Below are positions 9,320 through 14,185 of a stretch of DNA of 64,000 bases, piece after piece (the first letter of the stretch is position 1; the number at the start of each line of letters is the position of its first letter). This stretch comes from an uncultured bacterium (GTDB taxonomy: Bacteria; Atribacterota; Atribacteria; Atribacterales; Caldatribacteriaceae). Made by a program: the position numbers and the translations under genes. The stretch is from contig CALAIW010000023.1 of the NCBI GenBank assembly GCA_937922705.1, positions 90,225 through 154,224 on the forward strand. The letters are read 5' to 3'. Under the pieces are notes generated by a model that saw nothing but the letters and a program-made list of their open reading frames with translations, was not told the DNA's origin and did no database searches.

Positions 9320-9514
9320 GTGTTTTCCATCGACGATCTGGTAAAGAAGACAGGTAACGCTTATATACTTTCCCTTGTTGTGGCCCGGCGTGTTCGCCAG
9401 CTTAATGAGGGTGCTCATCCTCTTGTTGAACTCAAAGAACCCCACAAGCCCCTTTTTATTGCGATTCGCGAAATTCTTGAGGATAAAATTCAGTTTGAAT
9501 TTGCTGAAGAGTGA
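9320..9514 (+). CDS. rpoZ: DNA-directed RNA polymerase omega subunit
   Basis: Small acidic protein SIDDLVKKTGNAYILSLVVARRVRQL between gmk and coaBC. Confidence 0.9.
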   Translation: MFSIDDLVKKTGNAYILSLVVARRVRQLNEGAHPLVELKEPHKPLFIAIREILEDKIQFEFAEE

Positions 9515-10728
9515 TGGTTGTCTACCATCCTTCCTCTTTCTTCCAGGGTAAGAAGATCCTCCTTGGGGTTACAGGAGGTATCGCGGCGGTTAAGGTGGTG
9601 AGCCTCGCGCGGTACCTCACCGAAAAGGGAGCCCGAGTTACTACCTGTATGACCCGTCACGCTCTTCGTATCGTAGGGCGTACTTCCTTTGAGGCAGTCA
9701 CTGGAGAACGGGTGTATATTGACTCTTTTGCAGAAGGAGCTTCCCTTGCGCATATTACTCTTGCACGAAGTCACGATCTTATCCTCATTGCTCCGGCAAC
9801 GGCAAATATCATTGGAAAAATGGCGCACGGTATCGCTGATGATCTTTTGAGTACGCTCCTTCTCGTGGAGCCTCAGAAGGTCCTCCTTGCACCAGCTATG
9901 AATGTGAGTATGTGGAGGAATCCAGTGGTACAGGAGAATGTGAAAATCCTCGTAGAGCGGGGAGTACGCATTATTCCTCCGTCTTCCGGAAAGCTAGCCT
10001 GTGGAGAAGAGGGAGAAGGTCGTTTACCAGAGGTTGAAGAACTCGTTGAGGCAGCTTTTCAGGCGCTTCATACGCCTCGTGATCTTGCTGGAAAGAAAAT
10101 CCTTGTCACTGCAGGGGCTACTCGAGAATGGGTTGATCCTTCCCGATTTATTTCTAATCCTTCTAGTGGTCTTATGGGGTGTGCTCTGGCTAGTGTCTGC
10201 CGAGCTTGGGGTGGAGAAGTGAAGCTTATTACGGGTAATCTTTCGGTTCGTGTTCCCTTTGGTGTTGTACAGGAAGTTGCTGAAACAGCGCTTGCCATGC
10301 GTGAAGCAGTTTTCCGATCTTTTGGCTGGTGTGATGTTCTTATTATGTGCGCGGCGGTCTCGGATTTTCGACCCGCCTCCTTTTCTCCTTCGAAAATAAA
10401 GCGGGGAGAGAGCGCTTTTACGCTCTCTCTTGTACCGAATCCTGATATTCTAAAGGAAATAGGAGAGAAAAAGGGTACAAAGATTGTTGTAGGTTTTTGT
10501 GCGGAAACTGAAAATGTACTCGAAGAGGCGTGGAGAAAACTTCGTGCGAAAAATGTGGATATGATGGTGGCAAATCTTGTCGGGCAAGAAGAAACGGGGT
10601 TTACTGCTCCAACAAATAAAGTGTGGATTGTTGATCGGAAAGGTAATGAGGTAGTTTTGCCTCTTCTCCCAAAGGTTGATGTTGCAGAACGCATTGTTTC
10701 CCATTTGGTATCGCACTTTCTCTCATGA
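9511..10728 (+). CDS. coaBC: Bifunctional phosphopantothenoylcysteine decarboxylase / phosphopantothenate-cysteine ligase
   Basis: KKILLGVTGGIAAVK; LAPAMNVSMWRNP; ISNPSSGLMGCALA. Confidence 0.97.
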   Translation: MMVVYHPSSFFQGKKILLGVTGGIAAVKVVSLARYLTEKGARVTTCMTRHALRIVGRTSFEAVTGERVYIDSFAEGASLAHITLARSHDLILIAPATANIIGKMAHGIADDLLSTLLLVEPQKVLLAPAMNVSMWRNPVVQENVKILVERGVRIIPPSSGKLACGEEGEGRLPEVEELVEAAFQALHTPRDLAGKKILVTAGATREWVDPSRFISNPSSGLMGCALASVCRAWGGEVKLITGNLSVRVPFGVVQEVAETALAMREAVFRSFGWCDVLIMCAAVSDFRPASFSPSKIKRGESAFTLSLVPNPDILKEIGEKKGTKIVVGFCAETENVLEEAWRKLRAKNVDMMVANLVGQEETGFTAPTNKVWIVDRKGNEVVLPLLPKVDVAERIVSHLVSHFLS

Positions 10729-12728
10729 AGCTCATTGTTCAGGTTGCTCTTCCTTTGCCTCTTTTTCGGACATTTTCCTACGCAGTGCCTGATGCACTTC
10801 TTGATACAATTCGGGTAGGAAGTACTGTTGAGGTTGATTTCCACAACCGCGTTGTAACCGGTTGGGTGGTAGAAGAGGGGGGGGAAGAGGTTCGGGGGCT
10901 TAAAGAGATCCGCACAGTAGAGCCGCTTCCCCCCTTGCCACCTTCTTTCCTCGCTTTTTTGCGGCGGCTCTCGATGCTGTACCTTACCCCTCTTGGGGAG
11001 GTTATTGCCTCCGTCGTACCACCACTCCGTAAATCGTACAAAAATTACCTCTCTTTTCGAGTTTTCGAGGGAGAGGATAAGGCAACGTTTCGTGAGAGGT
11101 TTGGTTCTCTCTCCTCTCAAGGAATGAATGGTTTTCTCTTCCGAGAAGAATTTCGTGTCTCTAAGCGCGAGTGGCAAAAACTTCTTGAAGATGGTGTCAT
11201 TCATGTGGAGCTGGAAAAGTGGTCTTTTGAGGAGGCATCTCAACCTCCCGGAACACTCTCTTTTTGGGAAATCCCTGGTATGGAGGAACGAAAAGCGTTT
11301 ATCCTTAAAATTCTTAAGAAGGCACAAGATGCAGAACAAAAGATTCTCTTCCTTTTCCCGGATTTTGAGCAAGAAGATGCCTTTCTCGGTTTTCTCAGAG
11401 AAGTTCTCCCATCTTCATCCATCGTGCGTTATGACAGCCGTTTAGGTGTGCGGGAAAGACTTAAAGCATTTCTTCGAATTGTGGAGGGAAACTTTACGGT
11501 TGTTGTAGGAACCCGACTTGCTGCTTTTGTTTTTCCGTATCGAAGCCTCCGCTTTTGCGTGCTTTTCGATCCCGAAGAGAAAGGTTATTTCTCTGACCGG
11601 GCCCCACGATACAATATTGCTGAGGTTTTAGAGGAACGAGTACGTTTTTTTGGGGGACATCTCGATATTGTGGGTACCGTACCTTCTTTGCGAGCATACT
11701 TCCAGTGGACAAAAGGCGTGATAAAGATGGGGAACAAGTTTTCCCTTCCTTCTGAGGTTGACGTTCGGGGTGTCGTTGTTCGGAAAGAATGGGGAAAGTG
11801 TGCGCTTTTGCCTCCCACCAGGCTTTTCGTAGACGAGGTAGTGCGACGAGGGGGGATCGTTCTTATCTGGGTTCAGAAAACGGGTTATGCTACGGCTTTA
11901 GGGTGCCAAGAGTGCGGTTTCTACTACACTTGCCCTTCCTGCGGTGTAGCACTTCGGTACCATCGAGATCCTGTTCTCCTTGTGTGTCCTTTGTGCCATT
12001 TTCAGAGAGCCCCGGAAGGTACTTGTCCACTTTGTGGAGGTATAGGGTGGGAAGAATGGGGGCAGGGGACAGAGAAAGTTTTTGAGGAGGTTGAAAGAGT
12101 TTTTCCACGGGTACGGAAAGAGCGAGTGGACCTAGAGAATGAAGAAGAGGGATGGAAGGGTGCAGTGCAAGCTCCTTCTATCTTTGTGGGGACGAATGCC
12201 CTCCTTCGGGAAAGCGTTCTTCGTAGGGTTTCTCTCTTTGTCATCCACTCTCTTGATGAGTGGCTGAGTCTTCCTGAGGTTGGTGCGCGGGAGGAATTCT
12301 ATCTTCGTTTGCACAAGGTTATGCGACTCCTTCCTAAAGGAGCTCGAATTGTCGTTCAGGGAAGTCGCCAAAGTCTTTCAGAGTTTTCTGGATTTCTCAA
12401 GCCTTGGTCATCTTTTTACGCTTCATCCCTCGAAAAGCGAAAGGCTCTTCTCCACCCTCCCTTTGTGCGTCTTGTTCGAATTGTTGTTCAAGGTAGGAAT
12501 AAAGCGGTAGCCTTGCAGGTTCTCAATCGTTTGAAAGAGCTCTTTGCAACTTGGGAGATTCAGATTCTAGGACCCTTTCCAAGTGTGCGTCCTCGCCGGG
12601 AAAGAGCAAGGAGCATGGAGCTTGTTATCCGTTACTCCGATGCGGATGTGGAGAAAGTTTTTACTCTGTGTTCACAGGTCTTTCCCCTTTCGGGGGTGCA
12701 TTGGTCTTTCGAACCCATTTTGTTTTGA
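10725..12728 (+). CDS. priA: PriA-like primosomal protein N' lacking recognizable helicase ATPase motifs
   Basis: PriA N-terminus VALPLPLFRTFSYAVP; Cys pairs CQECG...CPSCG...CPLC...CPLCGG; GTEKVFEEVERVFP; no Walker A, DEEH or QVAGRAGR box. Confidence 0.88.
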   Translation: MKLIVQVALPLPLFRTFSYAVPDALLDTIRVGSTVEVDFHNRVVTGWVVEEGGEEVRGLKEIRTVEPLPPLPPSFLAFLRRLSMLYLTPLGEVIASVVPPLRKSYKNYLSFRVFEGEDKATFRERFGSLSSQGMNGFLFREEFRVSKREWQKLLEDGVIHVELEKWSFEEASQPPGTLSFWEIPGMEERKAFILKILKKAQDAEQKILFLFPDFEQEDAFLGFLREVLPSSSIVRYDSRLGVRERLKAFLRIVEGNFTVVVGTRLAAFVFPYRSLRFCVLFDPEEKGYFSDRAPRYNIAEVLEERVRFFGGHLDIVGTVPSLRAYFQWTKGVIKMGNKFSLPSEVDVRGVVVRKEWGKCALLPPTRLFVDEVVRRGGIVLIWVQKTGYATALGCQECGFYYTCPSCGVALRYHRDPVLLVCPLCHFQRAPEGTCPLCGGIGWEEWGQGTEKVFEEVERVFPRVRKERVDLENEEEGWKGAVQAPSIFVGTNALLRESVLRRVSLFVIHSLDEWLSLPEVGAREEFYLRLHKVMRLLPKGARIVVQGSRQSLSEFSGFLKPWSSFYASSLEKRKALLHPPFVRLVRIVVQGRNKAVALQVLNRLKELFATWEIQILGPFPSVRPRRERARSMELVIRYSDADVEKVFTLCSQVFPLSGVHWSFEPILF

Positions 12729-12740
12729 GGAGGATGCCAA

Positions 12741-13247
12741 GTGGCGCTTCGAACCCTTGAAAAGTACGGAAGCCCTGTTCTTCGAGAGAAAGCACAACCA
12801 GTAACCAATATTACTGGAGATATTGTTGCCCTTGCTCAGGATATGCTGGAAACGATGCATGCTTTTTCGGGGATAGGCCTTGCAGGAAACCAGATAGGGA
12901 TTCCTCTGCGGATTATTACCGTGCTGCATCCGGAGACGAAAGACAATCTCGTTGTTGTTAATCCGGAAATCGTGGTTATGAGTGCGGAAAAGGAGCTTGG
13001 GGAAGAAGGATGCTTGAGTATTCCTGAGGTCTACGGTAAGGTTGAGCGAGCACGACTCATCGTTGTTCGAGGAGTGAATCTTCAGGGGAGAGAAGTAGAA
13101 ATCGAGGCTCAAGGGCTTCTTGCACGGATTTTCCAGCATGAGGTCGACCATCTTGATGGTATTCTTTTTGTGGACCGTCTGCACCCTGCTAAACGGCTCC
13201 TTTTAAGCAGTAAGCTTAAAAAGATTGCCCGTGAGGGGGCACTGTGA
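12741..13247 (+). CDS. def: Peptide deformylase
   Basis: GIGLAGNQIG, EEGCLSIPE, FQHEVDHLDG metal-site motifs. Confidence 0.97.
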   Translation: MALRTLEKYGSPVLREKAQPVTNITGDIVALAQDMLETMHAFSGIGLAGNQIGIPLRIITVLHPETKDNLVVVNPEIVVMSAEKELGEEGCLSIPEVYGKVERARLIVVRGVNLQGREVEIEAQGLLARIFQHEVDHLDGILFVDRLHPAKRLLLSSKLKKIAREGAL

Positions 13248-14185
13248 AGATGCGCATTATTTTCATGGGAACATCTCTTTTTGGAGCAAGGGTTCTTAGT
13301 GAACTTGCTGAGGAGAATCGCTTTACTGTTCTTGGAGTCGTAACTCGTCCAAATCGCCCTGCGGGGAGAGGATTGCGTCCCTCCCCACCTCCGGTGCGAG
13401 AAGAAGCCGAGCGTTTGGGGCTGCCTGTGTGGCAACCTGAACGAGTGAATAACCCGGATTTCGTGGGGTTTCTTCGATCTCTTGCCTGTGATATCATTGT
13501 AGTTGCTGCGTATGGGCAGATTCTCAAAAGAGAGCTTTTGTCTCTTCCTCCCTTGGGTTGTCTCAATGTTCATGCTTCGCTTCTGCCTAAATATCGTGGT
13601 CCTGACCCCATTCGCTGGACAATCCTCAACGGGGACGAGGTAACTGGGGTTACCATCATGCTTATGGATGAGGGTGTGGATACGGGTCCAGTGCTTGCAC
13701 AGCAGTCCATCCCTGTTGCACCAGATGATACGTATATTTCCCTTGTAGAGCGACTTGGTACCGCCGGTGGGAAGTTGCTTCGGGGTGTCCTTCCGGCCTG
13801 GAGGGAGGGTCGGATTGTGCCCCGTCCTCAAGAGGGGGATCCTTCGTATGCTCCTCTTCTTGGGAAGGACAAAGCCCGTATTCGTTGGGAGGACCCTTGC
13901 TGGTATATTGCTCGCCAGGTGCGGGCATTCTTTCCTTCTCCGGGGGCTTATACCCTTTTTAGGGGGAAACGCTTAAAGATTCTCGAAGCCTCCTGTAAGG
14001 AAGGAGATGGAACTTCGTGTCCTCCTGGAACTATTTATCGTATAGAGAAGCGTGGAGGAATTGTGGTGTGTGCGGGAGAAGGATTGGTGGTTGTCCAGAA
14101 ATTGCAACCGGAGGGAGGACGAGCTATGTCGGCATGGGAATTTGTCTGTGGGTACCGTATTTGTGAAGGTCACGTGCTTTGTTAG
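13244..14185 (+). CDS. fmt: Methionyl-tRNA formyltransferase
   Basis: FMGTSLFGARVL; NVHASLLPKYRGPDPIRWTILNGDEVTGVTIMLMDEGVDTG. Confidence 0.97.
   Translation: MKMRIIFMGTSLFGARVLSELAEENRFTVLGVVTRPNRPAGRGLRPSPPPVREEAERLGLPVWQPERVNNPDFVGFLRSLACDIIVVAAYGQILKRELLSLPPLGCLNVHASLLPKYRGPDPIRWTILNGDEVTGVTIMLMDEGVDTGPVLAQQSIPVAPDDTYISLVERLGTAGGKLLRGVLPAWREGRIVPRPQEGDPSYAPLLGKDKARIRWEDPCWYIARQVRAFFPSPGAYTLFRGKRLKILEASCKEGDGTSCPPGTIYRIEKRGGIVVCAGEGLVVVQKLQPEGGRAMSAWEFVCGYRICEGHVLC

Follow-up and report, generated by a model that had tools for sequence, protein, structure and literature searches.

The window analyzed in this study is a 64,000-nucleotide stretch of contig CALAIW010000023.1 from an uncultured bacterium of the family Caldatribacteriaceae (Atribacterota), whose genome has a size of 1.85 Mb and is 99% complete. 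A priA gene (10725..12728, + strand) starts with ATG and encodes a protein of 667 aa in an open frame. Its surroundings are arranged as yicC, gmk, a 64-aa rpoZ-like ORF (RNA polymerase omega; 9320..9514, +; assigned by position and sequence likeness), coaBC (9511..10728, +; PF04127/PF02441), priA, def (12741..13247, +; PF01327), fmt (13244..14185, +; PF00551/PF02911), a zinc peptidase gene, and rsmB; coaBC overlaps the start of priA. We take this order to be close to that of Bacillus. The order of the priA neighbors is preserved in the Atribacteria-class loci, and coaBC-priA-def(-fmt) is also found in a second Atribacterota class. Given the preserved coaBC-priA-def-fmt context, ORF 10725-12728 is the orthologous priA rather than a stray paralogue, and it encodes the only PriA of its Caldatribacterium genome. 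Among named organisms, the genome is closest to Candidatus Caldatribacterium californiense and C. saccharofermentans, with a PriA identity of 62%, which places it in the class Atribacteria of Atribacterota. The NCBIfam PriA models matched residues 194-640, with an E value of 7e-51 for TIGR00595; the score of 174 bits missed the curated cut-off of 230, which is an annotation threshold and not a biological property. PriA chains in the PDB were matched as well (E 3e-28).

The domains of PriA are retained. The 3'-DNA-end binding domain (3'BD) occupies residues 6-99 (10740..11021, +; PF17764, E=1.7e-17), and its pocket is kept as F17/Y19/K60, the equivalents of F16/Y18/K61 by alignment column counts. 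The zinc/cysteine-rich region (CRR) covers residues 394-437 (11904..12035, +). The four cysteine pairs described in the initial annotation are all there: C394, C397, C403, C406, C421, C424, C434, and C437 are present and invariant, with zero entropy in all groups compared. Pfam matched the zinc ribbon (PF18319) weakly, under the gathering score. The C-terminal domain (CTD) spans residues 579-653 (12459..12683, +; PF18074, E=1.7e-7). An AlphaFold model was obtained with a pLDDT of 86.7 and a pTM of 0.88, and its best nine Foldseek matches were all PriA structures (TM 0.65-0.74), at an identity of approximately 17-20% to the canonical structures over the Foldseek alignment. Pfam, the model, and Foldseek together place the 3'BD, two RecA-like lobes, the CRR, and the CTD in PriA order. 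The residues of the SSB-tail pocket, taken from Klebsiella PriA in a numbering that may not fit the E. coli frame, were variable even among the canonical PriAs aligned and are therefore uninformative. Domain order, fold, 3'BD pocket, CRR cysteines, and CTD are shared with canonical PriA of E. coli and K. pneumoniae, whereas the ATPase motifs are found only in the canonical proteins.

The motifs were compared by alignment with E. coli PriA, the offset being checked so that K230 falls on the Walker lysine. The former Walker A site (residues 183-190; 11271..11294, +) reads IPGMEERK against GVTGSGKT at E. coli 224-231. The former Walker B site (residues 281-284; 11565..11576, +) reads F-D-P-E against DEEH, motif III has changed from GSATP to VGTVP, and the former motif VI (residues 531-537; 12315..12335, +) reads KVMRLLP against QVAGRAGR, with the arginine fingers lost. 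These are the replacements that the initial annotation had proposed. Residues 286-296 (KGYFSDRAPRY; 11580..11612, +; placed by alignment) are partly kept and presumably correspond to the aromatic-rich loop of PriA. This loop couples DNA binding to ATP hydrolysis, a role reportedly described by Windgassen and Keck in 2016. An intact P-loop elsewhere in the protein would have spoken against the loss; no P-loop pattern was found in the remainder of the 667 aa. In the AlphaFold model, strand 177-182 (beta-1) passes almost straight into helix 186-202 (alpha-1), so that the predicted fold would leave no space for a phosphate loop. Hence, Walker A, Walker B, and the motif VI arginines, the marks of an active helicase, are all missing from this PriA, as is motif III.

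The survey of the phylum covered 50 Atribacterota genomes, from which 39 PriA sequences were examined, 37 of them covering the Walker A site. They form two deeply separated groups of 23 Atribacteria-class and 16 second-class rows, the latter presumably JS1/Phoenicimicrobiia. A PriA family match was obtained in 50/50 genomes. The strongest match was PriA except in a few incomplete genomes, and the remaining matches were short stretches of RecG, Mfd, or other helicases. Neither a second canonical priA in the 50 genomes nor a relative with intact motifs, both of which had been suggested as checks, was found: the Walker A GK is present in 0/37 sequences, the D-E of motif II in 0/39, and both motif VI arginines in 0/39. 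DEEH is replaced by D-P-E-x-x-G-H/Y in the Atribacteria-class group, in which D282-P283 is invariant, and by E/D-Q/R/E-E-x-S in the second group. One fragment from a further family (G026) keeps MDEEGS and has lost motif VI. In another genome (G040), the PriA pieces lie on two contigs, and piece L031 lacks the Walker motif. No relatives were found on viral contigs. Judged from these sequences, the loss of the ATPase motifs is phylum-wide in Atribacterota. The second-class proteins give full-length matches of approximately 370-480 bits, above the TIGR00595 cut-off, yet lack Walker A. Such loci (e.g., L057) would be named 'replication restart helicase PriA', and automatic naming is misleading here.

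Selection was estimated as pairwise Nei-Gojobori dN/dS, using only pairs with unsaturated dS. The ratio was 0.11-0.22 for the whole gene and 0.03-0.09 for the CRR, which indicates that PriA is maintained and not decaying. Together with the open frame, this purifying selection agrees with the earlier view of a maintained gene; in Atribacterota, PriA has been retained although its motor is gone. The Walker A, II, III, and VI columns of canonical PriAs lie at conservation percentiles 4-10, among the most conserved. Those of Walker A and motif VI have drifted to the protein average in both groups of Atribacterota (percentiles 47-63). Within the Atribacteria group, new residues have become fixed at the former motif II (percentile 11). 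In the second group, the loop that follows this motif shows strong conservation (percentile 17, YKEERxPRYxAR). In the Atribacteria class, residues 281-296 (11565-11612 of the window), where Walker B and the aromatic-rich loop would lie, carry DPExxGH/YxSDRxPxY with almost no variation. This segment is possibly a new docking site.

The wider search included 243 genomes, approximately 217 of them outside Atribacterota, and PriA was read in 30 of the lowest-scoring outside genomes and in a set of higher scorers. Walker A was missing in 18 of the 30 low scorers, representing 14 families outside the phylum, and the zinc module was mostly kept. The loci concerned are L144, L146-L148, L150, L152-L158, L160-L164, and L167; the count leaves out L166 and L168 (very divergent, CRR-only match) and L159 (broken frame). 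Some of these 18 genomes will be known Deinococcus-Thermus and actinobacterial cases. The SGKT core was present in all of the top 30 scorers and in 39/40 mid scorers, the last one being degenerate. Pattern misses were rechecked by alignment; L183 keeps GKT, and L179, truncated by the contig end, keeps SGKT. The score is no guide to the Walker state, since the second Atribacterota class lacks the motif despite its high scores. L192 (G135) keeps SGK among degenerate motifs (GPRESGKERIYL, DGEEE, QVVGKAGR) and possibly represents an intermediate stage of motif loss. In L163 (G231), a Walker-less PriA from a 0.6-Mb genome, the CRR region contains just 4 cysteines, and the zinc module may also be reduced. 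The survey hints at Walker-less PriA in 14 or more further bacterial families, a wider distribution than the literature consulted describes. Published statements hold that the PriA motifs are conserved except in Deinococcus-Thermus; this claim looks too strong.

The full-set tree required five changes of Walker state. After removal of the long rows, all Walker-less rows fell on one side with a support of 96, a placement that we do not take as evidence of one origin, given the length of many of these branches. A tree uniting both groups of Atribacterota in one clade was not rejected (p-AU 0.745). The parallel loss proposed in the initial annotation is no more than plausible: a single loss within Atribacterota was not rejected, and relative to other Walker-less PriAs the tree does not distinguish parallel loss from long-branch effects.

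ATPase loss has been noted for actinobacterial PriA, the precedent named at the outset. The key precedent, missed there, is in Deinococcus-Thermus: D. radiodurans PriA shows neither ATPase activity nor unwinding and binds ssDNA, forks, and DnaB (Lopper et al., 2015; PMC4504706), in a genome without clear priB or dnaT (PMC4504706). Both Walker A and B are broken in that protein, as in the Atribacterota PriA, which matches the Deinococcus-type pseudohelicase as a PriA whose ATPase motifs are broken and which selection maintains. The D. radiodurans protein has an arginine for the Walker A lysine in a poor motif match, whereas Atribacterota, another phylum, have lost the entire P-loop together with the D-E pair and both arginines of motif VI. 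By analogy, the simplest reading is that Atribacterota PriA likely acts as D. radiodurans PriA does. M. tuberculosis PriA (Rv1402) is smaller and very divergent (PMC1193525); it is counted as essential, and the organism lacks DnaC, DnaT, PriB, and PriC homologues (PMC5694481) but has DciA (PMC5720831). From these published descriptions, Rv1402 may resemble the Atribacterota protein. When E. coli PriA binds a fork, its CRR swings, and together with HD2 and the CTD it forms a pore that surrounds the lagging-strand ssDNA; restart by PriA-PriB in vivo requires neither ATPase nor helicase activity, and the published DnaB-loading assay was carried out with K230A variants of PriA (PMC10175261). In the literature searched, no paper joining PriA and Atribacter was found, and pseudohelicase as a term for PriA as the subject appeared only in the Deinococcus paper (PMC4504706).

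The genome carries one full copy of DnaB, a DciA (found in 42/50 Atribacterota genomes), and one UvrD-type helicase; RecG/Mfd-like helicases, named by length and position, are probably also present. DnaD/DnaB2-type loaders, another check suggested at the outset, were found in 0/50 genomes, and no PriC was found in the own genome. The only IstB/DnaC-type match over the cut-off, a 490-aa frame at a distance of approximately 3 kb from DciA, is most probably DnaA.

We consider it quite probable that the sole, orthologous PriA of Atribacterota has become a pseudohelicase that recognizes abandoned forks without ATP hydrolysis or unwinding and hands ssDNA to DnaB/DciA. The 3'BD would hold the leading-strand 3' end of the abandoned fork, and the helicase-shaped lobes, the CRR, and the CTD would hold the parental duplex and the lagging-strand ssDNA. 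This ssDNA would then be presented, ATP-free, to DnaB with DciA. On a duplex lagging arm, ssDNA would need to be exposed by a further enzyme (of UvrD/PcrA type, RecG-like, or a nuclease). Purifying selection, phylum-wide loss, the lack of a second priA, and the preserved fold and synteny support the ATPase-less restart scaffold envisaged by the initial annotation. The invariant DPExxGH/Y segment suggests that lobe 1 has gained a new feature, unexplained by a plain scaffold model.

That segment bears on a different and improbable explanation, in which the PriA shell has been kept but has left restart for another nucleic-acid role, such as a transcription- or recombination-linked adaptor. The long branch of the Atribacteria-class group would fit such a change, as would DPExxGH, WVQK.GY..ALGC, E496, and W513, which are newly fixed and missing in canonical PriA; against it, the protein is the only PriA, and the 3'BD pocket, the CRR cysteines, the CTD, and the operon position are all kept. 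Considerably less credible is a noncanonical but active site binding ATP via other residues. Although two RecA-like lobes are still predicted, Walker A is missing together with the acidic pair of Walker B and the two arginines of motif VI, no other residues have become conserved in the columns of Walker A and motif VI, and helix alpha-1 of the model begins almost directly after beta-1; K230R alone abolishes the ATPase of E. coli PriA (PMC4504706). A decaying pseudogene or an assembly or sequencing error, for which only the missing motifs speak, was rejected as having next to no probability: the same loss recurs in 23 sequences of the Atribacteria class and 16 of the second class, which come from independent assemblies with single-cell and MAG records among them, and dN/dS is well below 1.

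A PriA pseudohelicase was already known in D. radiodurans; new are the phylum concerned, how complete the loss is, and the hint of wider spread. It is conceivable, though we put it forward only tentatively, that ATPase-less PriA is no peculiarity of Deinococcus but a major, recurrent restart initiator in many bacterial lineages, paired with helicase loading of the DciA type, so that fork remodelling by PriA with ATP would be optional, and that DPExxGH/Y of the Atribacteria class is a new partner-docking site replacing the ATP switch. A whole second phylum that lacks the ATPase motifs while its DNA-binding and zinc regions are under strong selection offers natural evidence that what is essential in PriA is the recognition of forks and the hand-off, the motor being an add-on. 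With PriA, DciA, and DnaB, and with no DnaD-type loader or PriC found, Atribacterota would provide clean systems for motor-free helicase reloading.
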